Origin: a virus
Direction: 5' to 3' (one strand)
Virus record (IMG/VR): IMGVR_UViG_3300020395_000009
Coordinates: 1 to 58,379 of that record
DNA length: 58,379 nt
Shown here: positions 5,333 to 48,281 of the stretch, in pieces
Numbering within the stretch: position 1 is the stretch's first letter
Layout: each line of letters begins with the position of its first letter
Notes under the pieces: generated by a model
The model's database searches: none
What the model saw: the letters and a program-made list of their open reading frames with translations, nothing else
What the model was told of the DNA's origin: nothing
Position numbers and translations under genes: made by a program

Positions 5333-5355
5333 ACATAATATATAAGGTAAAAAAT

Positions 5356-5363
5356 TATTTATA
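5356..5363 (-). promoter_or_regulatory. T4-type late promoter for the gp4-gp53 block
   Basis: The minus strand reads a perfect TATAAATA. Transcription would start about 10 bases on, leaving a short leader to the gp4 ATG at 5332. It lies in the divergent region between gp4 (-) and the tube initiator gene (+). Confidence 0.6.
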
Positions 5364-5364
5364 G

Positions 5365-6126: not shown

Positions 6127-6140
6127 TCTATATAAACCCC

Positions 6141-6148
6141 TATAAATA
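6141..6148 (+). promoter_or_regulatory. T4-type late promoter upstream of gp26
   Basis: Perfect TATAAATA in the 49-base gap before gp26; the ATG follows 28 bases after the box. It probably drives the hub and tape-measure genes. Confidence 0.65.
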
Positions 6149-6175
6149 AAGTACACTGAATTGTATTAGGATATT

Positions 6176-6895: not shown

Positions 6896-6897
6896 CA

Positions 6898-7080
6898 ATG
6901 GTGCATATGAATCTGGAGAATTACTTCAGATTAAATTTTGCTTTGATGCAGTACCATAAATATAGCTTGACAGAGATTGAGAATATGATGCCTTGGGAAC
7001 GAGACATTTATGTGGGTCTTCTCCAACAACATCTTGAGGAAGAAGAACTAAAACAAAAGCAGAAAAACTCTAATGCCTAG
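6898..7080 (+). CDS. small gp51-like / tail assembly chaperone-like protein
   Basis: Sixty residues from ATG 6898 or 57 from ATG 6907 (MNLENYFRLN). The pattern is a Tyr/Phe-rich helix, then ENMMPWERDIYVGLLQQHLEEEE and a charged tail. A short protein with an MPWERxIY helix follows gp26 in other T4-like cyanophages; I believe some are labelled gp51-like hub assembly proteins, but I am not sure. It sits between gp26 and the tape-measure-like gene, the place of the T part of tail assembly chaperones, and is in the -1 frame relative to gp26. It overlaps the next start by 8 bases. It may be translated alone, as a gp26 fusion, or both. Confidence 0.55.
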   Translation: MVHMNLENYFRLNFALMQYHKYSLTEIENMMPWERDIYVGLLQQHLEEEELKQKQKNSNA

Positions 7081-10073: not shown

Positions 10074-12371
10074 ATGGCTTGGGCAGCACTGGGTAAAAAA
10101 TTAGCGACTGGAGCAGTCAAGGGTAAGGCAAAGAAGATTGCCACTGATAAGTTATTGAATAGAAAGAAAAAGTCTCGTGCCAAAAGACCATCGTTAGATG
10201 AACTTATTGCAGAGGTTAGGGGTAGTGGTCCTGAAGCTGACCAAGCAAAAGGTGGAGCACTTGTTGTTCGACCTACTACTTCTTTAGTTCCTTCTCCTGG
10301 TGGTGCTATTCAGAAACATACTGGTGTAGATGGTGAGTATGGTAGTGTAGAAGATAATATTATTAGAATCAAATCAAAAGTTATTGCAATAGATGGTATA
10401 TTAAAAGGTACTCTTGCAGCAGAGAAAGCACGGAAAGCAGATGCAGCAGCAGCACAAGAAGCATCAGAACAAGCAGCAGCAGAAAAGAAATTAGAAGCAA
10501 AACCAAAGAAGAAGAAAAAAGGAATTAAGTTGAAAGCACCCAAACAAGTTATGGGTCTTTGGCAAAGGTTACAAACTTTCTTTAGTACTCTAGTACTTGG
10601 TTATATTGGAATGCAATTGCTTCCTTTATTACCAAAGTTGATTCCTCTTGCTAAAGGTCTTCTAGGTATTGTAGATAAGATTATATGGGTTGCTGGTAAA
10701 CTTCTTGAATTTGCAGTGACCTTTATTGATTGGGGTTATAAACTTTATGATATGGGAATGGGTCTCATCAAGAATCTTGTTGGTGAAAAGGGTGCTAAGT
10801 TAATTGAAGACCTTATGGGTCACTTAAATACTCTTATCAATGGATTTCTTGTATGGAAGATAGTTGGTGAGAAAATATTTAAGGCAATTGTTGCTCATAT
10901 AAAAAGAGTCTTTAGAATAGCAAAGATAATATTCAAGAAGGTAACAAAGTTTGCTAAGAATATTATTAAGAATGCTCTTAATTTTGCAAAGAATATAGCA
11001 CAGAGGGTTGGTAAAAACCTGATGAAGATACCAGGTGTTAAGAATGTGGTATCTAATGTTGCTAAGACAGCAGGTAATATACTTGGTAAGGGTGCTAACT
11101 TATTGAGTAAGGGTAAGGGATTACTTGGTAAGGCTGGTGGTATATTTAAGGTTGGAGGTAAAGCAGCAGCAGGTAAGGTAGGAGGAATTGCTGGTAAGAT
11201 ATTTGGTAAGGCAGCTAAGTTCATTGCTCCTGCTATTAAGGGTGCAATGCCAGCAGTAAAAGGATTCCTTGGAAGGATTCCTATCATGGGACCCCTTATC
11301 GTAGGTATTGTATCTCTCTTAACAGGAGATCCTCCAGGTAAGGCTATCTTCAAGGCACTTGGTGCAGCATTAGGTGGAGCACTTGGAACCTTTATACCTA
11401 TTCCTGTTCTTGGTACACTGATTGGTGAAACAATTGGTGTGTTTGTTGGTGAGTTATTATATTATCTGATTATAAAACGAGATCCTAAAGCAGCATTTCA
11501 GTTCCTGAAAGATAGCTTTATGAAGATCTTTAATGTAGGAAAGAATATATTCCTATTCTTTAAGGATGGATTTAGTAGGTTTATTACTACCTTCCCAATG
11601 GTGAAGTTCCCTGCTCAGAGTATTGGGCATTATATGTATAAGTTCCTGTCTATCAATCCTATCTACAAAGGGATGATGGATTTTGAGGTTCCTGGTTGGA
11701 GGGTTATACCTAAATGGATTCGTGGATTCTCATTAAAGAAATTACTAAGTTCTCTTCCCAGTATTCCTGAGATATTAGGAACTATATTTAATTTGCATCC
11801 ATTGCTAAAAGGTTTGGTTAAGGATGGTAAGGTAGAAGGTTTCCCTGCAATATGGCAGTTAATGAATCCTGTCTTTATGATTAAGCATCTGAAGGAATCA
11901 TTCTTCCCATCTAGTGGTGGACCAAGTAAACCTGCTACAGAACAATCTCAATCTGTTTCAGAGGTGGGTGAACCTAAAGAGGAAAAGAAGAAGAAAGAAG
12001 ATCCTGTAAAGAAAGAGAAGAGAAGATTGAAAGAATTATATAAGAAGAAGGTTGAAAAAATTCATACTTCTATAACTGATTTTGTTATGGGTGTAGGTGA
12101 AGCAATGAAGATTCCTTTAGTTGAGGAGGAAGCAGACACACCTAAATTACAAGTTGCTGGTGCTACTACTAAGAGTGCAAGTTCAACTAATGAAAAGATA
12201 TCTTCAGTGAGTTCTCATGCTTCATATGAAGAAGGTGCTGGATCAACAGTAATTATTCAGAATAATTCTTCTACTGCTGTTCAACCATCACCTAAGAGTG
12301 ATGTTAATCCATTTGCTGCATCCTCTGCTTCTGGAGAGGATCCTTATGAGTCTCTTGATCAGTTTGGTTAA
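10074..12371 (+). CDS. second tape-measure-like hydrophobic tail protein
   Basis: A 765-residue protein starting 1 base after the previous stop. It opens with a basic segment, then Ala/Lys/Glu helices (about 100-155) and a hydrophobic block (about 160-228). Next comes a Lys/Gly/Ala-rich stretch of amphipathic repeats (about 280-395) and a strongly hydrophobic block (about 397-466; MGPLIVGIVSLLTGDPPGKA, then a Gly-rich ALGGALGTFIPIPVLGTLIG). The C-terminus is Ser-rich. Alternating amphipathic and membrane-like segments after a chaperone-like gene are typical of tape measure proteins. This and the previous protein may share that job or one may be a gp29-type hub component. No catalytic motif is visible. 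Confidence 0.55.
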   Translation: MAWAALGKKLATGAVKGKAKKIATDKLLNRKKKSRAKRPSLDELIAEVRGSGPEADQAKGGALVVRPTTSLVPSPGGAIQKHTGVDGEYGSVEDNIIRIKSKVIAIDGILKGTLAAEKARKADAAAAQEASEQAAAEKKLEAKPKKKKKGIKLKAPKQVMGLWQRLQTFFSTLVLGYIGMQLLPLLPKLIPLAKGLLGIVDKIIWVAGKLLEFAVTFIDWGYKLYDMGMGLIKNLVGEKGAKLIEDLMGHLNTLINGFLVWKIVGEKIFKAIVAHIKRVFRIAKIIFKKVTKFAKNIIKNALNFAKNIAQRVGKNLMKIPGVKNVVSNVAKTAGNILGKGANLLSKGKGLLGKAGGIFKVGGKAAAGKVGGIAGKIFGKAAKFIAPAIKGAMPAVKGFLGRIPIMGPLIVGIVSLLTGDPPGKAIFKALGAALGGALGTFIPIPVLGTLIGETIGVFVGELLYYLIIKRDPKAAFQFLKDSFMKIFNVGKNIFLFFKDGFSRFITTFPMVKFPAQSIGHYMYKFLSINPIYKGMMDFEVPGWRVIPKWIRGFSLKKLLSSLPSIPEILGTIFNLHPLLKGLVKDGKVEGFPAIWQLMNPVFMIKHLKESFFPSSGGPSKPATEQSQSVSEVGEPKEEKKKKEDPVKKEKRRLKELYKKKVEKIHTSITDFVMGVGEAMKIPLVEEEADTPKLQVAGATTKSASSTNEKISSVSSHASYEEGAGSTVIIQNNSSTAVQPSPKSDVNPFAASSASGEDPYESLDQFG

Positions 12372-35089: not shown

Positions 35090-36760
35090 ATGGCTGTAAA
35101 TAAGAATTTTGTAGTCAAAAATGGCTTAGAGGTCAATACCGATCTTTTACTTACAGATGTTGAAAAGCAATTTGTAGGTATAGGTACGACTGTCGTTGGT
35201 CATACTCTTCATGTAATCGGTGGAATTGGGGCTACCAATCTCTATGTTAGTGGAATAACAACTCTTGCTGCTACTGGTGGAATCACAACCACTGGTGGCG
35301 ATTTGTATGTTGGGGGTGATTTATTTGTCAAGGATGACTTAGTTCTTGATGAAATCACTGCACGGGATGTCACGATAAGTGGTATCGCAACGATCAATAA
35401 ACTTGACGTTACTGATCAGATTACCAATTTCCTTGATATTCAGGGTGGTATTAACGCTACTGGTGTTATAACTGCACTTGGATTTGAGGGATCATCAATT
35501 GGATTTGGTACTCCTGCTGGTGCTATTGGATATGCTGCTACATTTTTAGATTTCCGAGGACCAGGTGTTTCTACGGGATTCTTTGATGCTGGTAGTGGTA
35601 TTGGTACTATTTACTTCCAAGGTGGAGGTGGTGGTGGAAACATCAGTGTTAGTAGTCTTGCACCTGCTGGACCTGACGGTGGAGACCTTTGGTTTAATAT
35701 TGATGAAGGTAGAACATTTATCTTCTATGATGAACCTGCACTAGGCATTGGTAATGCTAGAGTATGGATTGATGCATCTCCATTTAATGTTGCTGCTGGT
35801 TTAGGAACATTCCTTTCCAGATCTGGTGATGAGATGGAGGGTCAACTTGGAGTTCTTCCAGGTTCTCAAAATGTTCCAGGTTTATACTTTAAGGGAAGCA
35901 CTGGTAAAGGACTTTATTACGCAAGTGGTAAGGTTTCTGTATCAGAAGATCTTCATGTAGATGGTAAAGTTGATGCTGCTGATGGATTTCATATTGGAAT
36001 TCAATCTGCAGGTACTTTAATTAATGGAAATACTGGTATAACAACTCTTAATTTCGTTGGAGTTGGTAATACATTTGCTGTAAATGGTACTACTGTTGAT
36101 ATTAGTATTGCTGGTGGTGGTGCTGGTATAGGTACTGCTATTGATATGACTGCTGTTCCAGGAACTACTGGACAGGATGTAATTTATTATGTAAATGAAA
36201 TTTTAGAAATTACAACTAATTCTACAATTACTGCACCTGACTCAACTGATGTTGCGTACACTAATTATGAAGAAGTTGTTGTAAATGATGGTATTGATCT
36301 AATTATTGATGATGGTGATCAGTTTGTAGTTGACGTACTTGGTCTTTCTACTTACACGACTAATGTAACAGGTGCTGCACCTGCTGCTACACCAGTCACT
36401 GGTCCAACAATGAATATTGCTGGTATCTCTACGATGCAGCATGTCACAGTTACTAAGAACTGGGCAAATACTGCTGGAGTTATAACAGCAACAGTAGGAT
36501 CATTGCCTGTCAATTATTATGGTAATTTCTATGGTGATGGTAAGAACATTCAGAATTTAGTTTCTGGTGTTGGAATTATTACTGCAGGAGGAACTGTAGG
36601 TACTGGAGCAACCTTCCTTGACTTAAGAGGAGCAGGTGTTTCTACATGTACTGTTTCTGCTGGAATCGCTACTATAAATATCGAAGGTGGCGGTGGCGGT
36701 GGAGCTATGGATCAAACTTGGTTCATGGTGGCTACTGGAATGAGAGCATCGGGGATGTAA
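35090..36760 (+). CDS. tail fibre protein with beta repeats
   Basis: A 556-residue protein. It opens AVNKNFVVKNGLEVNTDLLL, a form common to cyanophage fibre proteins, then runs through short VGIGTT / LYVSGITTL repeats and FLDFRGPGVST-type motifs (repeated as FLDLRGAGVST near the end). The C-terminus is MDQTWFMVATGMRASGM. Repeated GGGGGG turns suggest trimeric fibre segments. It follows the Gly-rich adhesin by 45 bases and precedes the Cys-rich gene, so all three may belong to one fibre. No enzymatic motif is seen. Confidence 0.65.
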   Translation: MAVNKNFVVKNGLEVNTDLLLTDVEKQFVGIGTTVVGHTLHVIGGIGATNLYVSGITTLAATGGITTTGGDLYVGGDLFVKDDLVLDEITARDVTISGIATINKLDVTDQITNFLDIQGGINATGVITALGFEGSSIGFGTPAGAIGYAATFLDFRGPGVSTGFFDAGSGIGTIYFQGGGGGGNISVSSLAPAGPDGGDLWFNIDEGRTFIFYDEPALGIGNARVWIDASPFNVAAGLGTFLSRSGDEMEGQLGVLPGSQNVPGLYFKGSTGKGLYYASGKVSVSEDLHVDGKVDAADGFHIGIQSAGTLINGNTGITTLNFVGVGNTFAVNGTTVDISIAGGGAGIGTAIDMTAVPGTTGQDVIYYVNEILEITTNSTITAPDSTDVAYTNYEEVVVNDGIDLIIDDGDQFVVDVLGLSTYTTNVTGAAPAATPVTGPTMNIAGISTMQHVTVTKNWANTAGVITATVGSLPVNYYGNFYGDGKNIQNLVSGVGIITAGGTVGTGATFLDLRGAGVSTCTVSAGIATINIEGGGGGGAMDQTWFMVATGMRASGM

Positions 36761-36766
36761 TATGGA

Positions 36767-36774
36767 TATAAATA
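36767..36774 (+). promoter_or_regulatory. T4-type late promoter for the Cys-rich gene pair
   Basis: Perfect TATAAATA in the 61-base gap; the ATG of the first Cys-rich gene follows 47 bases after it, preceded by GGAGGG. Confidence 0.65.
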
Positions 36775-36821: not shown

Positions 36822-38846
36822 ATGGCTGGTGCTAAGAGGTTTCTATCTACAGTAGTAACTACAGATTTACCTGCTGGAGATGGTATCTGGCAGAATACTT
36901 GTGGAAAGCCCTTAAGTGTTACAATAGGTGCTCAGGCAATTACTACTAGTGTTAATTCTTGCATGACTCTTGCGGTTGGTATTGGTACTACAGTATTTGG
37001 ATCAACATTAGGTATTGCTTCTGGTAATTTTGCAAATTATTTTGGAATGAATGGACCAGGAGCGAATCCAGTTGGGCATAACACAGTATTTGGGACATTT
37101 TACTTAGGATCTGATTGTAATTGTCCAGGTGGTTATTGTGCATCTGCACCAGGTATTGCATCATATATTGCAGCAGACGGAACAGAAACAAAGAATTGGG
37201 AAGGTGGTCATAATCCTTGGGGATGTTGTCTATGTATTTGTGCTGGACCTTATCCAGATACTAGTTGTAGTAGTTGGTGTGGAAATGCTTTCTGGGGTGG
37301 ACAAGAATGGGTAAACCCTGCATTATCATTCTATCACGAATATTCAGGATTATGTTGGGATGCGGTTGAACCTTATGTTAACTGGAATATTGGTGAGTGT
37401 AGAAGTGTTCACGCATTAGGATGGACTAGAAGTGGAACATGTCATTTTGGTAGTTGTCGTGAGAACCCACCGATGTCTTGGCTTCTTCATGGATGTCATG
37501 CTGAAGATCCTAATCAAGCAGCACAAGTATGGATAAATCCTTATTGTTGTTGTGGTAAATGTAACTATTGCAATAGTTCTATTAATACTATGGCAATATG
37601 TTATCAGTATAATAACTATCAATGTGGTGGATTTTATAACTGGTATGCACTAACAAATAATATGCCTGATATTGTTTGTAAGAAATTCTGTTGTGAAAAT
37701 GGTTCGTGTAATATTTGTGAGTGTAATAACCATAGAAACTACAATTGTTTTACTTATAAATGTCCTGATTGGCATACTGCTGGTGATATTGAGATATACT
37801 TAAATTGGATTGCAAGAGGACCACATAAGTATTGCGTATGTTATTGTTGTTCGTGCGGAAGATGGTGTAGAGATAGGTATGAATGTTGTTGTATATCTCA
37901 GTTTACTGATTGTTATTCATGGATATGTCAGCTTTGTTGTTGGCAGCACTGGAGTGAAGGATGGACATGTCATTACGGTGATTGTCGAATGAATCCTTAT
38001 GGTGGTGTTGCAGGTGCAGGAACTCATTGTGGAGTTATACGACATCATAAGACAATGGGTGATTGTCAGATGTGGTTTATTGGAGTTCATTATGCATGTA
38101 CGTTCTATTGTCAGAGATGTAGTTGTTATATGCATACCTTAGATTTATGGATTAAACCTAATAAGTATGGAACTACTGCTTGTTGTACAAATGAGTATGG
38201 TGTTAAATATATGTCATGGAACCCTCAGAAGTGTTGTACATATCTTGCAATACGATCTTCAGAGGCAAAACATTGTGGAATATTCAGTTGGTTTGCATCG
38301 GGACAAGAACATCAATATCGAGATTGGACTTTAGGAGGTAGTAATAGATCAGTATTCTGTATATATCCTTGCGATAGTACTTATTTTACGAAGGTTGCTG
38401 ATTTCCCACCTGCATGGGTTTCTGATGAAAAATATTATAGTCCTATAATGTGTACAACATGTATTCATAGAATAGAAAAATGTTTATGGGCAATTGGTGT
38501 TTATAACTGCGATGAACTTAGGTTTGATCCATTTATATCAACTGATTTGATTAACTGGGCAGCATCTCCTAAAGGCGACCAGATTTCAGAAACGGTTATT
38601 TGTTCTTCTCCGCAGAATTGTATTGTTGAGTATTTATCTACTACATGTAAGTGGAGACAATGTACATCATTTGATGGTGCTGTATGTCAAGAAGGTATTC
38701 TTGATTGGAAGTTATCATTCAATAACTATGAGCGAACAGGTGTTATTATTGACTGTGATGAAAGATTATTTGTTAATAATATCCAGGATAACGCTTCTGG
38801 TATTGGAACAAACTTTAACCTTCAAATTTGGGGGTATGAAGGTTAA
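36822..38846 (+). CDS. Cys/Trp-rich virion-associated protein 1, unknown
   Basis: A 674-residue protein with about 69 Cys (10%) and about 30 Trp. The first 75 residues are ordinary fibre-like sequence (VAVGIGTTVFG-type). From about residue 90 to 640 cysteines occur as CC, CCC, CxC, CxxC and CxxxC: examples are CCLCICAG, YCCCGKCNYC, KYCVCYCCSCGRWC, YECCC, CQLCCW. The tail (NASGIGTNFNLQIWGYEG) is again fibre-like. I recognise no family. The fibre-like ends, the late promoter and the flanking fibre genes indicate a virion or fibre protein. Dense disulfides or bound metal are the obvious options. Nothing suggests a frameshift: the frame is long and fibre-like at both ends. Confidence 0.7.
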   Translation: MAGAKRFLSTVVTTDLPAGDGIWQNTCGKPLSVTIGAQAITTSVNSCMTLAVGIGTTVFGSTLGIASGNFANYFGMNGPGANPVGHNTVFGTFYLGSDCNCPGGYCASAPGIASYIAADGTETKNWEGGHNPWGCCLCICAGPYPDTSCSSWCGNAFWGGQEWVNPALSFYHEYSGLCWDAVEPYVNWNIGECRSVHALGWTRSGTCHFGSCRENPPMSWLLHGCHAEDPNQAAQVWINPYCCCGKCNYCNSSINTMAICYQYNNYQCGGFYNWYALTNNMPDIVCKKFCCENGSCNICECNNHRNYNCFTYKCPDWHTAGDIEIYLNWIARGPHKYCVCYCCSCGRWCRDRYECCCISQFTDCYSWICQLCCWQHWSEGWTCHYGDCRMNPYGGVAGAGTHCGVIRHHKTMGDCQMWFIGVHYACTFYCQRCSCYMHTLDLWIKPNKYGTTACCTNEYGVKYMSWNPQKCCTYLAIRSSEAKHCGIFSWFASGQEHQYRDWTLGGSNRSVFCIYPCDSTYFTKVADFPPAWVSDEKYYSPIMCTTCIHRIEKCLWAIGVYNCDELRFDPFISTDLINWAASPKGDQISETVICSSPQNCIVEYLSTTCKWRQCTSFDGAVCQEGILDWKLSFNNYERTGVIIDCDERLFVNNIQDNASGIGTNFNLQIWGYEG

Positions 38847-39619
38847 TGGCACGTTATGTAACAAAAAGATCTGCTGATGGCACATCAGGAGGAACTGGTG
38901 CAGATGGAAATGATTATGAGTGGAAACGAATTTATCATTGTGCTAAGTGGGATAAAGATTATGGTAATGATTTTGCGATGACTCTTCCTACATGTGATTA
39001 CCAGGCATTTAGATTTAGAATGGATGGTGTTAGAATTTGTGCAGCAAATCATATGTGTTGGTGCTTTGGTTTTGGATATAATAATGGACAATATCAGGGT
39101 AATAATAATAAATATTATGGGTGGTGTAACTGGTGTTGGCCATCAAGATCATGTTGTTGTTGGAGTAATTTTGCAGAAGGACATTTTTGTGCATGGGCAC
39201 ATCAGTCTGGTGGTGGATCTTATGAGGGTGCTGGTATCTTTGATTTATGTATTTTCCAGTGGGGTCAATGTGCATACCCTCAATCATGTTGTTTATGTCA
39301 GGTAGGATTTGATCTTAAGTGGAGAGCAACAGAATATTGTGGTTGGAGAAGAAGATGGGGATTTAGTTATGATTGGTTATCTGCAATGGATTGGATTCCT
39401 AGAGGAGCAGATCATACTGGTAGTTGGTGTGGATGTACTTTTGATACTTTATGTATTTGTTCCCCACAAAGTTTAGCACCAGCAGTTTGTAATTCTTATA
39501 AGTCAGGTACTAGTGCATATAGATCTAATTGGGCAGTTTATGGAATACCTTGGGGGCATGTACATGATGGTGATTCAGGACCATCTTCAGGTGCTAGTAC
39601 ATCTGGACTACCAACTTAG
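38846..39619 (+). CDS. Cys/Trp-rich virion-associated protein 2, unknown
   Basis: A 257-residue protein with about 22 Cys and 17 Trp. It starts on the last base of the previous stop (TAATG overlap), so the pair is translationally coupled. After a Gly/Asp N-terminus (ADGTSGGTGADGNDYEWKRI) come CxxxxxCWC, WCNWCWPSRSCCCW, SCCLC, WCGC and LCIC clusters, then a Ser/Gly/Pro-rich tail. The composition is like that of its neighbour but I see no clear alignment, so it may be a partner rather than a duplicate. No zinc-finger spacing is regular enough to name a domain. Function unknown; a fibre-tip or adhesin role is inferred from position. Confidence 0.7.
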   Translation: MARYVTKRSADGTSGGTGADGNDYEWKRIYHCAKWDKDYGNDFAMTLPTCDYQAFRFRMDGVRICAANHMCWCFGFGYNNGQYQGNNNKYYGWCNWCWPSRSCCCWSNFAEGHFCAWAHQSGGGSYEGAGIFDLCIFQWGQCAYPQSCCLCQVGFDLKWRATEYCGWRRRWGFSYDWLSAMDWIPRGADHTGSWCGCTFDTLCICSPQSLAPAVCNSYKSGTSAYRSNWAVYGIPWGHVHDGDSGPSSGASTSGLPT

Positions 39620-39627
39620 GAGGCATT

Positions 39628-40623
39628 ATGGGAATAATAATTAACTTAGACGGTACAGAAACAGAGTTTTCGCATAGTATTGATGAGCAACAGATTCTTG
39701 CTAATGAAGTTTCTGGATGGGAAATTAGCGACAAAGAATCTATGCTCCAACTTAGGAAGCAAAGGGATCAACTTTTATTAGAATGTGATTGGACTCAAGG
39801 TGTAGATTCTCCTTTAGATAGTACTACTAAAACTGCATGGGCAACTTATAGACAGAAACTTCGTGATTTAACTTCTTTAGAAAATGCTCCAAGTCATTTA
39901 TTAGATTCTGAGTGGCCATTAGCTCCAGGACAATCTGAACTTCCTGAAGAATCATATGAGTTTATGAGAAAAAATTTAGATCCTGTTGGATTGGGTACTA
40001 CTTCTTGGGTAGCTACTGAAAGTTCTTATAAAGAACTTAATGGACCACCTGTATATAAGAATACTCCTAATACTAGAAAGACTATAATATTTGAGGCTCC
40101 TCTTAGTACTATGTCTGGAGGGACTGTAAGTATAGGAGATACCTTTGCATATAATGGTGAGAGTTGTACGATAACAGGAGTGGCAGCAACTTCTATTACA
40201 TTAGCTACTGGTATTGGTGCTACAATTTCAGTAGGTACGATAGGAAAATTCTTACATCAACAAGAAATATATGTTAGACAAGATAAACCTTTATTTAAGT
40301 CATCTGTAAGTGTTGGATCTACTGTAGTTGGAGTAGGAAGTACAGTTGTAGTTACGCTATCAACTATTAATCAAGCAAGTGCAATTAGTGTTGTATATAA
40401 AATTAATGGATACCAGTATGATGGGTTAATTCCTGATAATAAGGCAAATGGTAATTTTATTATTGAACCAGATCCTGTTACACATATAGGAGTAACAACA
40501 CTTACTATTGGTTTGTCAACTGATATTTCTAATTACTATTGGGATGATGGTTTAGCATTCCACTTTGATGGAGTAGACTATGATGGTCATTTAGGAGCTT
40601 TTGTAGGGATAACCACAACGTAG
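39628..40623 (+). CDS. tail fibre assembly chaperone-like domain fused to fibre repeats
   Basis: A 331-residue protein. Residues about 30-95 resemble phage tail assembly chaperone domains, with LRKQRDQLLLECDWTQGVDS, PLDSTTKTAWATYRQKLRDL and a WPL end. In other phages this domain comes after a fibre gene and helps its folding. Here it is followed by about 200 residues of beta-rich, fibre-like sequence (IIFEAPLSTMSGGTVSIGDT, KFLHQQEIYVRQDKPLFKSS). It directly follows the Cys-rich pair after 8 bases with a good AGGAGG ribosome site. It could be the chaperone for those proteins, or a fibre with a chaperone-like N-terminus. Confidence 0.55.
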   Translation: MGIIINLDGTETEFSHSIDEQQILANEVSGWEISDKESMLQLRKQRDQLLLECDWTQGVDSPLDSTTKTAWATYRQKLRDLTSLENAPSHLLDSEWPLAPGQSELPEESYEFMRKNLDPVGLGTTSWVATESSYKELNGPPVYKNTPNTRKTIIFEAPLSTMSGGTVSIGDTFAYNGESCTITGVAATSITLATGIGATISVGTIGKFLHQQEIYVRQDKPLFKSSVSVGSTVVGVGSTVVVTLSTINQASAISVVYKINGYQYDGLIPDNKANGNFIIEPDPVTHIGVTTLTIGLSTDISNYYWDDGLAFHFDGVDYDGHLGAFVGITTT

Positions 40624-40649
40624 TTGCACAAATAACCTTTTGAGTGTAT

Positions 40650-40657
40650 AATAAATA
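40650..40657 (+). promoter_or_regulatory. late promoter candidate for the sugar cassette
   Basis: AATAAATA in the 77-base gap before the GT9 gene, one base off consensus. It lies downstream of the possible earlier start at 40644, supporting ATG 40701. Confidence 0.4.
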
Positions 40658-40700
40658 CCAGTGTATTGATTTACATGAAACGGTATTTTGGTCTTTACTT

Positions 40701-41648
40701 ATGACTCGAAGAAAGGTTTTCACCTTAGATGGTGGGGCAGGACGTGCTATAACTGCAATTCCAGCGTTAGAAAAATATGCTAAAGCACATCCTGATGAAG
40801 ATTGGAAGATTGTTATAGGTGGTTGGGATACTTTAATGTTTGGTAATCCTCTTCTGCAGGATAGAACCTTTAGTATGGATGTAAAGGGATTATTTGAGAA
40901 TGTAATTAAAGATTCTGAGATAGTTCATCCAGAACCTTATACACAATGGGCATATTATAATCAGCAATGTTCTCTTGCAGAGGCATTTGATAAAGTTATT
41001 AATGAAACAGAAGATCATTCGGATTTAGGTAAACCGAATATGTATCTCTGTAAAGCAGAAGAGAAGGGTGCTGCTAATGCTCTTGCTAGTATTAAGGCAA
41101 AGCAGAATAAAGATATTACAATAGTAATTCAACCATTTGGTAGATCAGCAAGAGCTGATAATGGAGATGTTGTTGATGATAGTAGTAGGTCAATAGAACC
41201 ACATGTTTATCAGAAGCTGGTTAAAAAATTATCTCAGAAGTATAATATTATATTAATGGCAGAAGGTGATTTTATAAAAGAAGTTGAGAAAGAAGATACT
41301 TACTCAGAAAAACCACAATTACCAGATCTTCGTGCTTGGTCTGCTATTATTGAAGGGTGTGATTATTTTATTGGATGTGATAGTGTAGGGCAGCATATGG
41401 CAAGAGCATTTGATATTCCAGGTACAGTTATACTTGGATCAACTTTTGCTGAGAATGTTAGTTATCCTGATTGGTTTCAGATTATTGATGATAAGAAAAC
41501 AGAAAAAAGGTATTCTCCTATCAGAATATGTGGATTTGATAATCATCTTGCAGATAGATTGAATGATAGATTGATGGAATTTGACGATAAAGAAATAACT
41601 GATATTTATACTAGAATTGTAAAAGATATCAAGGAGAAAGTTTCATGA
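40701..41648 (+). CDS. GT9-family (heptosyltransferase-like) glycosyltransferase
   Basis: A 315-residue protein from ATG 40701. GT9 enzymes transfer heptose or related sugars from a nucleotide donor. Evidence: an N-terminal Rossmann start (FTLDGGAGRAITAIPALEKY), a mid-protein strand ITIVIQPFGRSARADNG, and the C-terminal signature IIEGCDYFIGCDSVGQHMARA with DIPGTVILGST (about residues 218-245), which matches the D-S/T-G-xx-H-x-A donor site of GT9. It is the first gene of a cassette containing ADP-heptose genes. The cysteine iron-finger of AAH/TibC protein heptosyltransferases is not seen, so the acceptor (host glycan or phage protein) is unknown. Confidence 0.7.
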   Translation: MTRRKVFTLDGGAGRAITAIPALEKYAKAHPDEDWKIVIGGWDTLMFGNPLLQDRTFSMDVKGLFENVIKDSEIVHPEPYTQWAYYNQQCSLAEAFDKVINETEDHSDLGKPNMYLCKAEEKGAANALASIKAKQNKDITIVIQPFGRSARADNGDVVDDSSRSIEPHVYQKLVKKLSQKYNIILMAEGDFIKEVEKEDTYSEKPQLPDLRAWSAIIEGCDYFIGCDSVGQHMARAFDIPGTVILGSTFAENVSYPDWFQIIDDKKTEKRYSPIRICGFDNHLADRLNDRLMEFDDKEITDIYTRIVKDIKEKVS

Positions 41649-43432
41649 ATATATTAGCAATTAATCCAGGTCATAATGGATCTGCTGCTCTTGTTGCCGA
41701 TGGTAAATTAGAAGTTTATATAGAAGAAGAAAGGATGTCTCGTGTGAAGCGAGATGGTAATCCGTATAAGGCGATGATATGGTTGATGCAGAAGTATACT
41801 ATAAATTATCTTGTTATATGTGGTAATGGATCTGAACACGAAAGGCATGTGCTTCCCTGGACAGGTGAGAATTCTTATGAAGCATTAGTAAGAAAATTTT
41901 ATCCAAAAGTAGAAGTACTTAGTTTTGGACATATGCATCATTTAGCACATGCTGCATCTGCTTTTTATGGTTCTGGATTTGATAGTGCTGCTGCTCTTAT
42001 AGTTGATGGTTGTGGAGCATCAAGAAAATTTCCTAATATTGAGGATATGCCTGAAGAACAAAAGTTTACTTATTTTGAGACGGAAAGTATCTACAAATGT
42101 GAATGGCCTGATAAGATAGAAGAAGTTTGGAAAAGATATGGAGAAAATAGTGGACCTAGAATAGAAACACCAGATACTGATGCTGATTCTGCAGTTACAC
42201 TTACTAAATCTTATGAAGCAGTTTCAGAATGGCTTGGGTTTGGTGCTATAGAAGCAGGTAAAACAATGGGTCTTGCTCCTTATGGTAGAGAAGATAAGAA
42301 TATCCCTAATCTTTTTATGGAGGATACTTTAAGAGGAGATAAGAATATTTTTATACCAGCATATCCTAGATGTGCATATCTTGATCAAATTAGATACCCA
42401 TATCTAAATGTTAGTAAGGATTTTACTAAAGATGAAGATGGAAGGGATCTTGTTTATTGGCATAAAGATAAAAGTAAGATAAGGGATGTGCATAAAAATT
42501 TAGCATATAAAATCCAGAAAGAAACACAAGAAATGATGTGTACTTATATTGAAAAGGCAGTTGATATGACTGGAGAGAAGAATATTGTTATATCTGGTGG
42601 ATATGGATTAAATGTTATTGCTAATACCTATTATCAAGAAAAGTTCCCTGAGTTAAACATTTTTGTAGATCCAATATGCCATGATGGTGGACTATCTATT
42701 GGTGCAGCAAAATTTATTTCGCAACAATATGCAAAGACTAGTGATATCACTTATGAGAAAGATCCTCTAAAGAATGTTTATCTTGGTCCTGAATATAATT
42801 ATACTGATGAAATTCTTGATGGTTATTTGGAATTTAATAAACTTGATGATGTAGAGATAGTAGAAACTACTGATGCAGAAGTTGCTCAGTTGATTAAGGA
42901 TCGTAATATTGTTACTATCTTCCAGGGAAAATCTGAAGGTGGTCCAAGAGCACTTGGTAATCGTTCTATCCTTTATGATCCAACAGATCCTGATGGTAAG
43001 GATTTTGTCAATACTGTTAAGGGTCGTGAGTGGTTCCGTCCATTTGCTGCATCAATTCTTAAGGAACATGCAAAAGAATGGTTTGATATGAAAGGATTAA
43101 GAGAAAGTCCTTACATGATGTATGCTCTTGAGGTGAGTGATGCACATATAGGTGAGATACCAGCAGTTACGCATGTTGATGGTACATGTAGGATTCAGAC
43201 TGTATCTAAGTTAGACAATACTAGTTACTATGCTCTTATTAAAGAGTTTTATAAGTTAACTGGTGTTCCAATATTGTTTAATACTTCATTTAATCTTGGA
43301 GGAGAACCTCTTGTAGAGAATCTTGATGATGCAATTAATACATTAAGAAATAGTAAGTTAGAATATATGTATATGCCAGAACTTGGTAAATTAATTAAAG
43401 TTCCTAATAAGGAGGAGGAATCTGATGGGTAG
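41645..43432 (+). CDS. O-carbamoyltransferase (NodU/CmcH/TobZ family)
   Basis: A 595-residue protein, full length for the family. These enzymes form carbamoyl-adenylate from carbamoyl phosphate and ATP and transfer the carbamoyl to a hydroxyl of a sugar or antibiotic. The N-domain begins MNILAINPGHNGSAALVADG and has the metal-binding HMHHLAHAASAFYGSGFDSA near residues 95-115, followed by LIVDGCGAS. The C-domain carries FQGKSEGGPRALGNRSIL (about residue 430), GREWFRPFAASIL, HVDGTCRIQTV and VPILFNTSFNLGGEPLV, all typical and apparently intact. It overlaps the GT9 gene by ATGA, so they are probably made together; the target is likely the same sugar. Confidence 0.9.
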   Translation: MNILAINPGHNGSAALVADGKLEVYIEEERMSRVKRDGNPYKAMIWLMQKYTINYLVICGNGSEHERHVLPWTGENSYEALVRKFYPKVEVLSFGHMHHLAHAASAFYGSGFDSAAALIVDGCGASRKFPNIEDMPEEQKFTYFETESIYKCEWPDKIEEVWKRYGENSGPRIETPDTDADSAVTLTKSYEAVSEWLGFGAIEAGKTMGLAPYGREDKNIPNLFMEDTLRGDKNIFIPAYPRCAYLDQIRYPYLNVSKDFTKDEDGRDLVYWHKDKSKIRDVHKNLAYKIQKETQEMMCTYIEKAVDMTGEKNIVISGGYGLNVIANTYYQEKFPELNIFVDPICHDGGLSIGAAKFISQQYAKTSDITYEKDPLKNVYLGPEYNYTDEILDGYLEFNKLDDVEIVETTDAEVAQLIKDRNIVTIFQGKSEGGPRALGNRSILYDPTDPDGKDFVNTVKGREWFRPFAASILKEHAKEWFDMKGLRESPYMMYALEVSDAHIGEIPAVTHVDGTCRIQTVSKLDNTSYYALIKEFYKLTGVPILFNTSFNLGGEPLVENLDDAINTLRNSKLEYMYMPELGKLIKVPNKEEESDG

Positions 43433-44081
43433 ATATAAATCAACACAACCACCGTCACAAATACCTCAAGAGATGCCAGATGGATCACCTCCTCCTGGTT
43501 ATTCAATATATAATCCAGAAGATTGGCCAAAAGAATTTCCAAATGGAGTAATTGGTATTGATAGAGATGGTGTTATAAATGAATGGAAGAATGTAATTAA
43601 AAGGCATGAGGATGTTAAATGGATACCAGGATCATTAGAAGGGATTCGTACTTTAAGATTAAAGGGATATCATGTTATGATGTTTTCTGATCAACCCATA
43701 ATGAAGGGGTTGATAAAAGCAGAAGAAGTTGATAAGATAATGAATACTTTTTATATGCGAGAGTTTGGGCAGAATGGTATTTTCTCTATTGATGGATTTT
43801 TATATAATACGAGTAATGATCCAAGAGATATGTATTCTAAACCAAATACTGGTATGTTTAATAAAATGAAGCAAATGTATAAGATGGATATTACGGGAGG
43901 GTATTATGTCGGTGATACACTAGATGATATTAAGATGGCACAGAATGGTGGTGCTAAACCTGTATTGGTTAGAACTGGATTCGGTGCAAAGACTGAGAAA
44001 GAAAACTTTAAGGGAATTAATACCAAATATAAAGACGTACAAATTTTTGACAACCTATTAGATTTCGCTAACTCATTATGA
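43425..44081 (+). CDS. GmhB-like HAD phosphatase (heptose bisphosphate type)
   Basis: A 218-residue protein. After a Pro-rich N-terminus of about 40 residues comes GVIGIDRDGVINEW, the nucleophile motif of the GmhB/HisB-N phosphatases, then IPGSLEGIRTLRLKGYHVMM, the second motif in FSDQP and the acid cluster YYVGDTLDDIKMAQNGGAKP. GmhB removes the C7... specifically the C7 phosphate of heptose 1,7-bisphosphate in the ADP-heptose route. The classic Cys zinc loop is absent, as in some family members. It overlaps the neighbours by 8 and 4 bases. Substrate is inferred from the HldE-like and HldD-like genes nearby; a HisB-type role is less likely. Confidence 0.7.
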   Translation: MGRYKSTQPPSQIPQEMPDGSPPPGYSIYNPEDWPKEFPNGVIGIDRDGVINEWKNVIKRHEDVKWIPGSLEGIRTLRLKGYHVMMFSDQPIMKGLIKAEEVDKIMNTFYMREFGQNGIFSIDGFLYNTSNDPRDMYSKPNTGMFNKMKQMYKMDITGGYYVGDTLDDIKMAQNGGAKPVLVRTGFGAKTEKENFKGINTKYKDVQIFDNLLDFANSL

Positions 44082-45103
44082 AAAGAGCTCTTATTACTGG
44101 TGGTGCAGGTTTCATTGCTCACCATATGATCGGTCAGATACTTGAGAATACTGACTGGGAAGTTATTACATTAGATCGTCTTGATTATAGTGGTAACTTA
44201 AATCGTCTTCATGACTTGATGCTTTCTTATGACCCAGAGGTTAGAAGTAGAGTAAAGATTGTACATCATGATCTTAAGGCAGAACTTAATCCACTTGTTC
44301 GTAGTGAGGTTGGTGATGTAGATTATATTTTACATCTTGCTGCAGGATCTCATGTAGATAGAAGTATTGATTATCCAATGGAATTTGTCATGGATAATGT
44401 TGTAGGTACATGTAATATACTAGAGTTTGCACGTACTCAAAAGGATAACTTAGAAAGGTTTATCTACTTTGGAACTGATGAGGTATTTGGTCCTGCACCT
44501 AATGGTATCAAGTACAAGGAGAATGATAGGTTTAACTCTACCAATCCATATAGTGCTAGTAAGGCAGGTGGTGAAGAGTTAGCAGTAGCATATGAGAATA
44601 CCTATAACCTTCCCATATACATTACACATACAATGAATGTCTTTGGTGAGCGTCAGCATCCAGAGAAGTATATTCCTATGTGTATCCGAAGGGCAAGGGA
44701 TGGTGAAACTATTACTATTCATAGTGACTCTACCAAAACAATTCCTGGTTCTAGACATTATATTCATGCAGAAGATGTCTCGTCTGCTATTCTATTCTTA
44801 TTAAATTATGAAGGTGAGTTTGAGCCAACATGGGGTAATGCTAAGTGTCCTAAGTTTAATATTGTTGGATCAGAAGAACTTAACAACCTAGAGTTAGCAC
44901 AGATTATTGCTGATGCTCAAGGTAAAGAATTAAAATATGAGTTAGTTGACTTCCATTCATCCAGACCAGGACATGACTTACGTTATGCATTGGATGGTGA
45001 TAAGATGAAGCAACTTGGTTGGGAACCTGCTAAGACAGTAAGAGAACGTATTGCAGATGTAACTAAGTGGACATTGGAAAATGAACGCTGGATTACTTTA
45101 TGA
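44078..45103 (+). CDS. NAD-dependent nucleotide-sugar 4,6-dehydratase (RmlB-like)
   Basis: A 341-residue short-chain dehydrogenase of the extended type. It has the NAD motif ITGGAGFIAHHMIGQ near the start, HLAAGSHVDRSIDYP, the RmlB active-site segment FIYFGTDEVFGPAPNG (Thr-Asp-Glu), NPYSASKAGGEELAVAYENT (Tyr-xxx-Lys) and HTMNVFGERQHPEKYIP. The later RHYIHAEDVSSAILFLL is typical of dTDP-glucose 4,6-dehydratases. It forms a 4-keto-6-deoxy sugar from a nucleotide sugar; dTDP-, CDP- or GDP-linked substrates cannot be told apart here. It implies that the cassette makes a 6-deoxy sugar or deoxyheptose as well as heptose. Overlaps both neighbours by ATGA-type junctions. Confidence 0.85.
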   Translation: MKRALITGGAGFIAHHMIGQILENTDWEVITLDRLDYSGNLNRLHDLMLSYDPEVRSRVKIVHHDLKAELNPLVRSEVGDVDYILHLAAGSHVDRSIDYPMEFVMDNVVGTCNILEFARTQKDNLERFIYFGTDEVFGPAPNGIKYKENDRFNSTNPYSASKAGGEELAVAYENTYNLPIYITHTMNVFGERQHPEKYIPMCIRRARDGETITIHSDSTKTIPGSRHYIHAEDVSSAILFLLNYEGEFEPTWGNAKCPKFNIVGSEELNNLELAQIIADAQGKELKYELVDFHSSRPGHDLRYALDGDKMKQLGWEPAKTVRERIADVTKWTLENERWITL

Positions 45104-45507
45104 TGGAGAATGATATAGTATGGTGTAATGGTACATTTGATATACTTCATCCAGGTCACATACAACTCTTTAAGGTTGCAAGGTCACTTGGTAGGAAAGT
45201 TATTGTTGCTACTGATACTGATGAGAAGATAAAGGCAGACAAAGGAGATCATAGACCAGTTAATGATCTATGTTATAGAGTGGCAATGCTTGAGGCAATT
45301 AAGTATATTGATGTAGTCCACACATTTGGTAGTAGACAAGAGTTAGAAGACTTGATAGAATTGTATGCACCTGATATACTATTACTTGGTGATGATTGGA
45401 GGGATGGTGATGTAGTTGGATGGGAACATGCAGGTGAAGTCAGGCATCTTCCAAGAGTTGGTGGCTATGCTAGTAGTAAAACTATCGAAAGAATTAAAAA
45501 TCTATGA
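45100..45507 (+). CDS. HldE-C / cytidylyltransferase-like sugar nucleotidyltransferase
   Basis: A 135-residue protein with the nucleotidyltransferase signature WCNGTFDILHPGHIQLFKVA (HxGH), IVATDTDEKIKADKG, RPVNDLCYRVAMLEAIKYID and LLLGDDWRDGDVVGWEHAGE. This is close to the C-terminal domain of HldE (RfaE), which makes ADP-heptose from heptose 1-phosphate and ATP, and to glycerol-3-phosphate cytidylyltransferase. The pattern of Gly-Asp-Asp-Trp plus a following Val-Gly and the linked kinase gene favour an HldE-type role. The kinase domain is a separate gene downstream, whereas in enteric bacteria the two are fused in the opposite order. Confidence 0.8.
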   Translation: MMENDIVWCNGTFDILHPGHIQLFKVARSLGRKVIVATDTDEKIKADKGDHRPVNDLCYRVAMLEAIKYIDVVHTFGSRQELEDLIELYAPDILLLGDDWRDGDVVGWEHAGEVRHLPRVGGYASSKTIERIKNL

Positions 45508-46235
45508 GAGTATTAGTTATTGGTGATAGTTGTGAAGACAGATTTGTTTATGGTAATGCCAAACGGTTAAGTCCAGAAGCACCTGTTCCTATACTAGAAT
45601 CTCAGAGAACTGAGACTAGTAAAGGAATGGCATGGAATGTTTTTAATAACTTACTAGCATTTGGTATAGAAACCTCTATGCTTACTAATGCAGAACAGAT
45701 AGTAAAGACAAGATATATTGATGAGAAGTCTAATTACCAGATCCTTAGAGTAGATGATGAACCTGAAATTAAACCATTAGAGGAGGTAGTTTCTAATGAT
45801 AATTATGATGCCCTTGTTATATCTGATTATGATAAGGGGTTTATAAAACAGGAGAAGTTATTTGAGATATGTTCTACATTTGTTGGTCCAATTTTTGTTG
45901 ACACTAAAAAGAATAATATACCAGAAAATGCTTATGTTAAGATAAACGAGTCTGAATTTGAGAAGGTTACTCATTATGATCCAAATAATTTGATCATAAC
46001 TAAGGGAGGGAAAGGTGCTGAATATCAAGGTAATTTATATCCAGCAGAGAAAGTGAATGTATATGATGTAGTTGGTGCAGGTGATACTTTTCTTGCTGCA
46101 CTGACATTTGGATTTTTACAGTATGGTAAAATGGAGGAAGCAATTCCTTTAGCAAATAAAGCAGCAGCAATTGCTGTATCACACACAGGAACATACGTAC
46201 TACAGGAGGAAGATGTCAAAAAGATACTGCGTTGA
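45504..46235 (+). CDS. PfkB-family sugar kinase, HldE-N-like
   Basis: A 243-residue protein, shorter than the usual 310-330 of HldE kinase domains. It begins VLVIGDSCEDRFVYG and has KRLSPEAPVPILE, the hallmark RxSPEAPVPV segment of heptose-7-phosphate kinases. It keeps YDALVISDYDKGFI, VDTKKNN, KINESEFEKV, LIITKGGKGAEYQG and the catalytic VYDVVGAGDTFLAALTFGFL with Asp in GAGD. The shortening falls between the N-terminal motif and residue 70, where part of the lid appears missing, so activity should be checked. It would phosphorylate heptose 7-phosphate at C1. ATGA overlap with the nucleotidyltransferase gene. Confidence 0.75.
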   Translation: MRVLVIGDSCEDRFVYGNAKRLSPEAPVPILESQRTETSKGMAWNVFNNLLAFGIETSMLTNAEQIVKTRYIDEKSNYQILRVDDEPEIKPLEEVVSNDNYDALVISDYDKGFIKQEKLFEICSTFVGPIFVDTKKNNIPENAYVKINESEFEKVTHYDPNNLIITKGGKGAEYQGNLYPAEKVNVYDVVGAGDTFLAALTFGFLQYGKMEEAIPLANKAAAIAVSHTGTYVLQEEDVKKILR

Positions 46236-46563
46236 TATTGATGGTACAATCTGTACTCCTACTGTGGGTAGAGATTACCACAAAGCAGAACCTTGGAAAG
46301 ATAGAATCAAGGTACTAAATAAACTTTACGATGAAGGTAATTATATTATCTACTTCACTGCACGGGCTATGGGTAGATTTTCTGATAAACCTCATTCTAT
46401 TGCATCTGTATCAGCAGAGGCAGTTTTATTTGATCTTACAAAACAACAATTAGATGATTGGGGTGTTAAGTATCATGAGTTAATCATGGGTAAACCACAT
46501 GCTGATTATTTTATAGATGATAAAGCCTGGACAGATGTATCCTTTTTTAATGATAAGAGATGA
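46213..46563 (+). CDS. small HAD-family hydrolase
   Basis: A 116-residue protein from ATG 46213, preceded by GGAGGA at 46205-46210 and overlapping the kinase gene by 23 bases. Motif I is YCVDIDGTICT (Asp-x-Asp), motif II YFTARAMGR (Thr-Ala-Arg) and motif IV DYFIDDKAWTD. This set is typical of the short HAD hydrolases found in polysaccharide gene clusters. It probably dephosphorylates a sugar phosphate, perhaps sharing work with the GmhB-like enzyme, but the substrate is unknown. Confidence 0.7.
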   Translation: MSKRYCVDIDGTICTPTVGRDYHKAEPWKDRIKVLNKLYDEGNYIIYFTARAMGRFSDKPHSIASVSAEAVLFDLTKQQLDDWGVKYHELIMGKPHADYFIDDKAWTDVSFFNDKR

Positions 46564-47159
46564 CATTTTTTATTGATGCTGGTGTTATTAGAGAAAATGA
46601 AGGTAAAAATCCCTTAACTTTTGTGGGGAGGAAAATTATTGATGATAAAATTATTTCAGATATTGAAGAGTATATAAGTCATCAAGAATTGGAAAGTGCA
46701 AAAGTCTTACATATGAATAGAAAGGATGCTGATAAGGCAAGATCTTCAATGATTCATTGGATGAGTAATGAAAATTATAAAGATTTTTTAATGCCAATTT
46801 ATGATATTATATCTAGAAACATTAGAATGATAAATGATGGTATGTGGAGATATAATTATAATGGGTATGGTGTTTTTCAGTATAGTGAGTATACTGTAGG
46901 AGATCATTTTAATTGGCACATTGATCAAATTGATATAAAAGGAGAAGCTAGAAAAGTATCTTTTTCTTTAGGAATATCTGATGAAAGTGAATATGAAGGT
47001 GGTGATTTAGGTTTTAAGGCAGCAGAAGAGGAAGATTATTATAAGATTGGTAGAGGTGATATAATAGCATTCCCATCCTGGATGCTACATAAAGTTACAC
47101 CTGTTACTAAAGGTAAGAGAAGAGTTCTTGTTGGTTGGGGAGAGGGTCTTATCTTATGA
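46560..47159 (+). CDS. 2OG-Fe(II) oxygenase (prolyl hydroxylase-like)
   Basis: A 199-residue protein with the double-stranded beta-helix iron motif: HFNWHIDQIDIKGEARKVSF (His-x-Asp), YEGGDLGFKA and the distal IIAFPSWMLHKVTPVTKGKR followed by RVLVGWGEG, where Arg binds 2-oxoglutarate. It resembles phage and bacterial P4H-type hydroxylases common in cyanophages. Such enzymes hydroxylate proteins (Pro, Lys, Asp), nucleic acids or small molecules. Here it is embedded in the glycosylation cassette, so hydroxylating a fibre residue or a sugar before glycosylation is a reasonable guess. ATGA-type junctions to both neighbours. Confidence 0.85.
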   Translation: MTFFIDAGVIRENEGKNPLTFVGRKIIDDKIISDIEEYISHQELESAKVLHMNRKDADKARSSMIHWMSNENYKDFLMPIYDIISRNIRMINDGMWRYNYNGYGVFQYSEYTVGDHFNWHIDQIDIKGEARKVSFSLGISDESEYEGGDLGFKAAEEEDYYKIGRGDIIAFPSWMLHKVTPVTKGKRRVLVGWGEGLIL

Positions 47160-47515
47160 ATAATGATATTAAATTTGTTCCTAAAGGATGGGGACATGAA
47201 AAATGGATCGTCAATACTGATGAGTATTGTGGTAAGTTGTTGTTTTTTAATAAAGGTAAGAGATGTTCATGGCACTATCATAAATTAAAAGATGAGACAT
47301 TCTATCTACAGTCAGGTAGTATTCTTTTATTTTATGGTGAGACAGATTCTTTAGAAGATGCCAAGACTATTGTACTAGAACCAGGTGATAAGTTTCATAT
47401 CCATAGAGGATTGCGTCATCAAATGGTTGCACAGGCAGACTCAGAGTTGTTTGAGTTCTCTACGCAACATTTTGATGAGGATAGTAATAGAGTTATACCT
47501 GGAGATACTCTTTAA
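47156..47515 (+). CDS. cupin-domain protein, sugar isomerase-like
   Basis: A 119-residue single cupin from ATG 47156, overlapping the oxygenase stop. The metal-binding motif is CSWHYHKLKDETFYLQSG (His, His, Glu), with the second strand pair FHIHRGLRHQMVAQADSELF. The N-terminal KFVPKGWGHEKWIVNTDEYC is like the C-terminal cupin of type II phosphomannose isomerases (KPWGxE). Family members isomerise or epimerise sugar phosphates or just bind them. Its last 23 bases overlap the end of hldD on the opposite strand. Confidence 0.75.
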   Translation: MNNDIKFVPKGWGHEKWIVNTDEYCGKLLFFNKGKRCSWHYHKLKDETFYLQSGSILLFYGETDSLEDAKTIVLEPGDKFHIHRGLRHQMVAQADSELFEFSTQHFDEDSNRVIPGDTL

Positions 47516-48281
47516 CAGTAGTAAATTTATAATCACCCCATTCCTTTTTAGCACGAGTGTATTCTTGATACTTACCTTCTAAGTGCTTTGGAAATGGTAT
47601 ATATTCTATAGTACCATTATATTTTTTTGCTACTAATTCTCCTACTTCTTGGAAACTGATAGGATTACTTGTACCTAAGTCATAGATACCCGATGGTTTA
47701 TCATTATTAAGAACAATATTTACAACATCATCTACATATATAAAGTCTCTAAGATATCTATCAGATCCCTTGAATAATTTTAGTGTTTCTGTTTCTTTAA
47801 TTTGTTTAGTGAATTTGGATACAGGACTTGCTTGATCTCCTTTATGATCTTCACCATCACCATAGACATTAAAGTATCTAAATCCCTGTATTAACTTAAA
47901 TTCATCCATATGATCTTGTACCCAATAGTCTGAGATGACTTTGGATATTGCATAGTAGTTGAGTGGATTAATTAAATTCTCTTTATTAAGATGTCCATAA
48001 ACTGATGCAGATGATGCATATTTTATTGGTATTTTATATCTTATTGCTTGTTCGCATAACCATTCAGTAAACTCAACATTAAAATGGTTGAATGCTTTTA
48101 GATTGGTGCATGTAGTATCAGAGATAGCACCTTGATGTAGTATGAGTTCTACTTCCTGCCATTGATTAAAGGTACGAAAATGCCAACTGTTCCTTTTTTC
48201 GACTTCAATTACCTTTTTGCCCGATAATTTTTCCAGGAATTTTTTTCCTATAAAACCCTCGCTACCTGTTAATATGATCAT
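47493..48281 (-). CDS. hldD: HldD-like ADP-glycero-manno-heptose 6-epimerase
   Basis: A 262-residue extended SDR, a bit shorter than E. coli HldD (310). It has IILTGSEGFIGKKFLEKL (NAD site), the HldD-specific ELILHQGAISDTTCTNLKAF, KYASSASVYGH (Ser), NPLNYYAISKVISDYWVQ (Tyr-xxx-Lys), GFRYFNVYGDGEDHKGDQAS, RDFIYVDDVVNIVL and IPFPKHLEGKYQEYTRA near the end. HldD converts ADP-D- to ADP-L-glycero-D-manno-heptose, the last step of the pathway. It stands alone on the minus strand, convergent with the cassette and with its own probable sigma70 promoter. Confidence 0.85.
   Translation of the reverse strand: MIILTGSEGFIGKKFLEKLSGKKVIEVEKRNSWHFRTFNQWQEVELILHQGAISDTTCTNLKAFNHFNVEFTEWLCEQAIRYKIPIKYASSASVYGHLNKENLINPLNYYAISKVISDYWVQDHMDEFKLIQGFRYFNVYGDGEDHKGDQASPVSKFTKQIKETETLKLFKGSDRYLRDFIYVDDVVNIVLNNDKPSGIYDLGTSNPISFQEVGELVAKKYNGTIEYIPFPKHLEGKYQEYTRAKKEWGDYKFTTVKEYLQV

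Follow-up and report, generated by a model that had tools for sequence, protein, structure and literature searches.

The window, by which we mean the whole 58,379-nucleotide stretch of viral DNA that was analysed, carries two overlapping cysteine-rich genes on its plus strand, these encoding protein 1 (36822..38846; 674 aa, 69 Cys, 30 Trp) and protein 2 (38846..39619; 257 aa, 22 Cys, 17 Trp). An earlier hand count of 91 Cys (69 + 22) and 47 Trp (30 + 17) in 931 residues proved exact. Elsewhere in the window, 124 Cys are spread over the 17,879 aa of the 38 other ORFs counted (0.69%), and relative to this the binomial log10 P of the Cys excess is -55 for protein 1 and -17 for protein 2. We judged both genes to be real, since comparison with the homologue at locus L002 (66-70% identical) gave a dN/dS of ~0.3 together with synonymous differences among Cys codons, which in protein 1 affect 14 of the 65 that are shared. 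Along the plus strand, protein 1 divides into an N-terminal beta domain (36822..36998; about residues 1-59), a Cys-rich body (37104..38621; residues 95-600, with 12.5% Cys and ~5.1% Trp), and a C-terminal closing segment (38622..38843; YERTGV..NLQIWGYEG). This last segment is the best-conserved stretch of the protein and is present in Cys-poor homologues too. Runs of the kind pointed out in the earlier note (here CC, CxC, and CxxC) do occur in both proteins, but they barely exceed those in shuffled sequences. When pooled by family, the CxC spacing is enriched in the protein 1 and protein 2 families alike (z 4.3), while CxxC gives z values of 2.4 and -0.6, respectively.

Upstream of the pair lies a gene for a fibre/baseplate-connector protein (35090..36760, plus strand; 556 aa, 1 Cys) with PHROG baseplate/tail-fibre matches (E 1e-12 to 1e-8), and a gene in the equivalent position is found in the homologous contigs. 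Seven bases past its stop codon, the octamer TATAAATA (36767..36774, plus strand) is a candidate T4-like late promoter. Its presence upstream of the pair, as claimed earlier, is confirmed, but the window holds 7 copies against 8.8 expected by chance, and so the promoter case rests on the position of the octamer rather than on its presence. For S-PM2, the late promoter is NATAAATA (PMC2984593). Translational coupling of the two genes, also proposed earlier, is likely in view of a TAATG stop/start overlap (38844..38848, plus strand), and an overlap of 1 or 4 bases (TAATG or ATGA type) recurs in every readable homologous pair, including those at loci L001, L002, L005-L008, L010, and L011. Fibre genes had been placed on both sides of the pair, which holds upstream, but the downstream neighbour (39628..40623, plus strand) encodes a tail-fibre-assembly chaperone domain protein (PF16778, E 2e-15; PHROG tail fibre assembly) and not a fibre, this being the third member of the module. 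Thus, the gene order of a T4-like tail-fibre tip module is found here, namely distal fibre, tip protein(s), and assembly chaperone.

Next on the plus strand come genes for a weakly GT9-like protein (40644..41648; phrog_8954), which starts a surface-sugar cluster, and for a Nol-like carbamoyltransferase (41645..43432; PF16861/PF02543, phrog_1601) of the same cluster. An ADP-heptose synthesis-like cluster follows the tip module at 44078-48281 (epimerases, nucleotidyltransferase, carbohydrate kinase, and HAD-like), as is likewise the case after the tip genes of P-SSM2 and S-CAM1. The source of the window is a T4-like myovirus, as placed by PHROG matches for the ssDNA-binding protein, helicase loader, and tube cap, and further by those for the tail tube, hub, and head-closure genes. 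Its tube cap protein shares only ~34-46% identity with the cyanophage and single-virus records that ranked best, and this lineage is therefore one without a close isolate.

Homologues of the pair and constraint on their cysteines

Sequence searches of Pfam, PHROGs, and the PDB gave no match to either protein, which agrees with the earlier suspicion that no named family is involved, and neither gave a score above the gathering cut-off for PF21722 Gly_rich_2. By tblastn against 50,697 phage records, protein 1 was found in a single record, MH319759 (Marine virus AG-345-O18; 24% identity). No record was matched directly by protein 2, although in MH319759 a protein 2 homologue does sit after protein 1. 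Plate AG-345 is an extracellular sort gate from a sample of the BiG-RAPA cruise (PMC6122165), and for this reason a free particle is the probable source of the MH319759 genome. Scans of IMG/VR added the homologue loci L002 and L005-L012, so that homologous pairs are seen in about ten uncultured marine contigs, with gene order and start/stop overlap kept. The single match in genome_contigs, L024 (NZHF01000005.1), is a near relative of L002 and contains ambiguous bases; it is a phage contig that had been assigned to the gammaproteobacterial MAG MED656. Of the 11 distinct loci with protein 1, counting the window, 10 have protein 2 directly after it, and L012 is the one that lacks it. Moreover, a gene resembling the tail-fibre-assembly gene of the window comes after the pair in the homologous contigs, giving the order fibre, protein 1, protein 2, chaperone, and sugar cluster. 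The Cys content is 7.2-12.2% among protein 1 homologues and 8.5-16.6% among those of protein 2. Proteins 1 and 2 each represent a new family, and no cultured carrier of either was present in the collections searched.

To compare Cys with other sites, close homologues of protein 1 or protein 2 were aligned in six pairs, with scoring that gives Cys no advantage. Here, 85-100% of Cys sites are conserved versus 63-87% of other sites (p below 0.05 in five of the six pairs), and dN/dS is 0-0.44 at Cys codons versus 0.29-0.99 at non-Cys codons. For protein 2 of L007 and L008, dN/dS is near 1 outside Cys, a pattern that fits a fixed framework with variable residues in between. In the alignment of the protein 1 family, every one of the 11 rows has Cys at positions 268, 314, 373, and 544, and in 41 columns Cys is shared by six rows or more. 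Hence, conservation of Cys positions, which the earlier note had named as a sign of disulfides or metal sites, is indeed higher in close pairs, and among close homologues we found neither random Cys positions nor a known family match. Changes by which a Cys is gained or lost singly do exist, and gains or losses in close pairs exchange it with a polar residue in 31 of 41 cases (23 expected). Furthermore, in a crude indel parity test, the number of Cys in inserted blocks is even no more often than by chance, which gives no support for local disulfide pairs.

Were the composition a by-product of hypervariation, through mutational bias or loop shuffling, Cys itself would be functionless. In keeping with this, Cys positions turn over at larger distance and some loops differ by entire inserts. 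However, purifying selection is stronger at Cys codons than elsewhere, and a Cys content of 7-17% is held down to ~25% identity, while neighbouring genes remain near 1% or below. Such an explanation is already disfavoured, and we regard it as very unlikely.

Cysteine-rich proteins in the tip slot of other marine phages

The GT9-like gene led us to the same slot in P-SSM2, S-SSM7, S-CAM1, S-CAM3, and Sf-FS3, as well as in single-virus records, and the tip slot of the window matches that of the first four. Between the fibre gene and the GT gene, these phages have genes for two or three "hypothetical proteins" whose Cys content is 8-12%, though AG-345-P14 has just one. This protein (L049:5117-5965; 282 aa, 26 Cys, no PHROG match) lies between a small beta-domain gene and a short gene that precedes the GT gene. 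In the isolates tested, the slot proteins belong to PHROG 4205/35878, and the set comprises PSSM2_304/306, SSSM7_114-116, and the triplets of S-CAM1 and S-CAM3. Like proteins 1 and 2, they occupy the place between tail fibre and sugar cluster, are rich in Cys (8-12%), and have a high Trp content, and in P-SSM2 and S-CAM1 they adjoin a small beta-domain gene; unlike them, they form a different family with a Gly-rich fold. A relationship of proteins 1 and 2 to PHROG 4205/35878 found no support (hhalign probability below 1, no PHROG match). The cyanophage slot proteins are already in GenBank, as hypothetical proteins, though we found no paper naming them in the open literature searched. Tandem Gly-rich Cys-rich genes, annotated as hypothetical or unannotated, were located in cultured cyanophages and single-virus genomes at L050:8973-10043 and 10772-11839, L051:7935-10328, L052:8374-11174, L060:4291-7109, L061:3970-6383, and L062:3398-6320. 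Altogether, the earlier reading of the pair stands in part: late fibre context, coupled genes, the lack of a named family, and conserved Cys are upheld, but the composition is not peculiar to the pair, as unrelated Cys-rich proteins share this slot in cultured cyanophages.

Relatives of the Gly-rich cyanophage family are encoded at no fewer than 244 places in IMG/VR, and the 50 that were read average 10.6% Cys (range 8.3-11.6). In an alignment of these 50 sequences (L063-L141), 17 Cys columns are nearly invariant. More conspicuously, Cys occupies exactly one of columns 106 and 137 in all 50 sequences, never both or neither, with about four changes each on a quick tree, and the non-Cys position is then aromatic or His. 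This switch resembles the shift of a thiol from one place to an adjacent one, with its partner left where it was, the outcome expected were a single thiol, and no more, required there by a third group. In column 266, Cys alternates with His, Asn, or Asp (about seven changes on the tree), which would suit a metal ligand. In four pairs of cyanophage analogues that share 45-50% identity, conservation of Cys sites does not exceed that of other sites, and their positions turn over while the content stays at 8-12%.

Metal-thiolate sites are the main rival to disulfides, and the Gly-rich analogue family gives hints for both. Here, the Cys would bind Zn, Cu, or Fe-S as thiolates loaded in the host cytoplasm, and would hold the tip or aid docking at metal-uptake receptors. 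The proposal is akin to the Ferrojan Horse hypothesis, which concerns iron in phage tails. Thiolates suit folding in a reducing cytoplasm, motifs of the CHC and C-x4-C-x-H types are invariant in the Gly-rich analogues, which also show the exchanges in column 266, and CC and CxC are somewhat enriched. On the other hand, CxxC is unenriched in the protein 2 family and only weakly so in that of protein 1, and this lack of ligand-pair enrichment, along with the lack of a Pfam match, speaks against zinc-finger or ferredoxin-like membership of either protein. Moreover, the window family shows no consistent rise in His (L005 and L012 have 4-5 His beside 52-80 Cys), His replaces Cys little above expectation (3 versus 1.6 column types), nor was any metal protein matched in Pfam or the PDB. 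On balance, we consider metal binding somewhat unlikely.

Cys enrichment was also met in other fibre folds. The contigs that carry proteins 1 and 2 have a background of 0.3-1.3% Cys. Gly-rich fibre proteins with about 5-7% Cys are encoded in G002 and G009 (L034:5541-7130; L039:11230-13779; L040:801-1823 and 6076-7113); the one in G002 has 6.8%, and four in G009 are near 5%, these latter sharing one segment with the cyanophage Gly-rich family. Three RCC1-like fibre proteins in G007 (L029:10896-16231) have 2.9-4.4% Cys, apparently in loops between the repeats. The Cys-enriched fibre proteins of G002, G007, and G009 are unrelated to proteins 1 and 2. As unrelated Cys-enriched folds occupy the fibre-tip slot, the common factor is position and not protein family; that is, in marine T4-like phages, Cys goes with the fibre-tip position rather than with one fold or family. 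Such slot-wide richness suggests an overlooked way of building host-gripping parts. Rather unlikely, though wider in scope, is a general Cys-based tip chemistry in these phages, in which several unrelated adhesin folds (proteins 1 and 2, the Gly-rich proteins, and the RCC1-like propellers) would each have been brought to 3-17% Cys and thiols at the tip would do a job specific to open-ocean attachment, for instance through oxidation-triggered maturation once the host has lysed or metal-assisted docking at its receptors.

The same recurrence in unrelated fibre folds could point to reactive or redox-sensitive Cys, which would form mixed disulfides with host surface thiols or rearrange on contact, and so make attachment irreversible. 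The preference for polar replacements is likewise as for exposed positions. Yet positional conservation and the one-of-two switch fit structural pairing better, and we hold reactive Cys to be improbable. In addition, we considered whether the Cys are a target of the neighbouring GT9-like enzyme, given that the GT gene always comes after the pair. A surface-sugar cluster follows the tip slot in cyanophages as well as in the window, but this GT, carbamoyltransferase, and heptose cluster does not decide the matter, because those phages carry Cys-rich proteins too.

Putative tip adhesins and the origin of protein 1

A fibre protein related to protein 1 but poor in Cys is encoded in L021-L023 (~535 aa, 0.6-0.7% Cys), whose context we read as podovirus-like. 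It resembles protein 1 in both its N- and C-terminal ends and in a directly following partner gene, and it matches the C-terminal part of the protein 1 body (hhalign probability 99.2, E 3e-19), but it lacks the Cys enrichment, and its partner is a PF21722 Gly_rich_2 protein instead of protein 2. Judging from this relative with 0.6% Cys, the Cys enrichment of protein 1 is a gain. The N-terminal end of protein 1 also matches a stand-alone beta-domain protein of 105-109 aa (hhalign probability 94, E 1e-7), which in cyanophages is encoded beside the fibre gene, examples being PSSM2_302, S-CAM1 N170310_103, and L012:4366-4695, with a weak likeness to PHROG 11338 tail fibre protein. This small protein shares the ERTG...YG.E type closing motif, though it is without the Cys-rich body of ~500 aa. 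The L012 copy (109 aa) is in the contig that is without protein 2. From its two ends, we infer that protein 1 may be a small beta domain opened by a large insert, which turned Cys-rich in this lineage.

We tentatively favour, with a little less than even confidence, the reading that proteins 1 and 2 are host-recognition tip adhesins with a conserved cross-linking Cys framework, most likely of disulfides formed after release. Pointing to a probable place in the virion, at the tail-fibre tip, are the way the genes are ordered, the presence of a chaperone gene, the site of the candidate late promoter, and the homologue poor in Cys; disulfides and host recognition are likewise putative. In this arrangement, the two genes and the chaperone gene would form a late module for the distal tail-fibre tip. 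Protein 1 would join the fibre via its small beta domain and carry the large Cys/Trp-rich body, with protein 2 as its co-translated partner. The body would present fast-changing host-recognition surfaces, and the Cys framework would cross-link strands and loops once the reduced, cytoplasm-assembled tip is oxidised on reaching oxygenated seawater, so that the residues in between could vary with the fold kept. The excess of CxC in the two families is consistent with Cys lined up on one face of beta strands. Against this reading stand the reducing host cytoplasm, the null parity result, and the turnover of Cys sites among the cyanophage analogues. Furthermore, S-SCSM1, whose virion proteins are published and marked in its record, has no Cys-rich protein of the pair or analogue kind, and no Cys-rich adhesin was found in S-CREM2 within 56-105 kb. 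As a way of working, and with no homology claimed, the pair may be compared with conotoxins and Giardia variant surface proteins, in which the Cys framework is conserved while intervening residues vary; these, unlike a cytoplasm-assembled phage protein, are secreted via an oxidising route.

Alternatively, the two proteins might be no part of the virion but late cellular products that, for example, buffer metals or thiols or act in lysis. A non-virion role seems quite unlikely in view of the place of the genes in the tip slot, beside fibre genes and a gene for an assembly chaperone, the fibre-type end domains, and the Cys-poor homologue that adjoins fibre genes. Two AlphaFold models were poor (pLDDT 42 and 46), residues 1-50 of protein 1 reaching about 61-86, and they therefore give no Cys geometry. 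Many of the top Foldseek matches to the pLDDT 42 model were beta-propellers (GH32/GH43/sialidase-like), none significant (E of 0.08 or above).

Tail-tip adhesins decide the host choice of a phage. Should dense Cys frameworks underlie these adhesins in a large fraction of T4-like phages of the open ocean, classic isolates such as P-SSM2 included, thiol or metal chemistry may help to determine which hosts are infected, how stable the virions are, and how they are inactivated in seawater. No study of this chemistry was found in the literature searched. Cultured carriers of the analogous Cys-rich proteins exist. Lastly, the head-closure (gp4-like) protein of the window (4889-5371, minus strand) has ~3.4-4.1% Cys, as do its equivalents in G003, G005-G008, and MH319758, and these Cys form a separate set.
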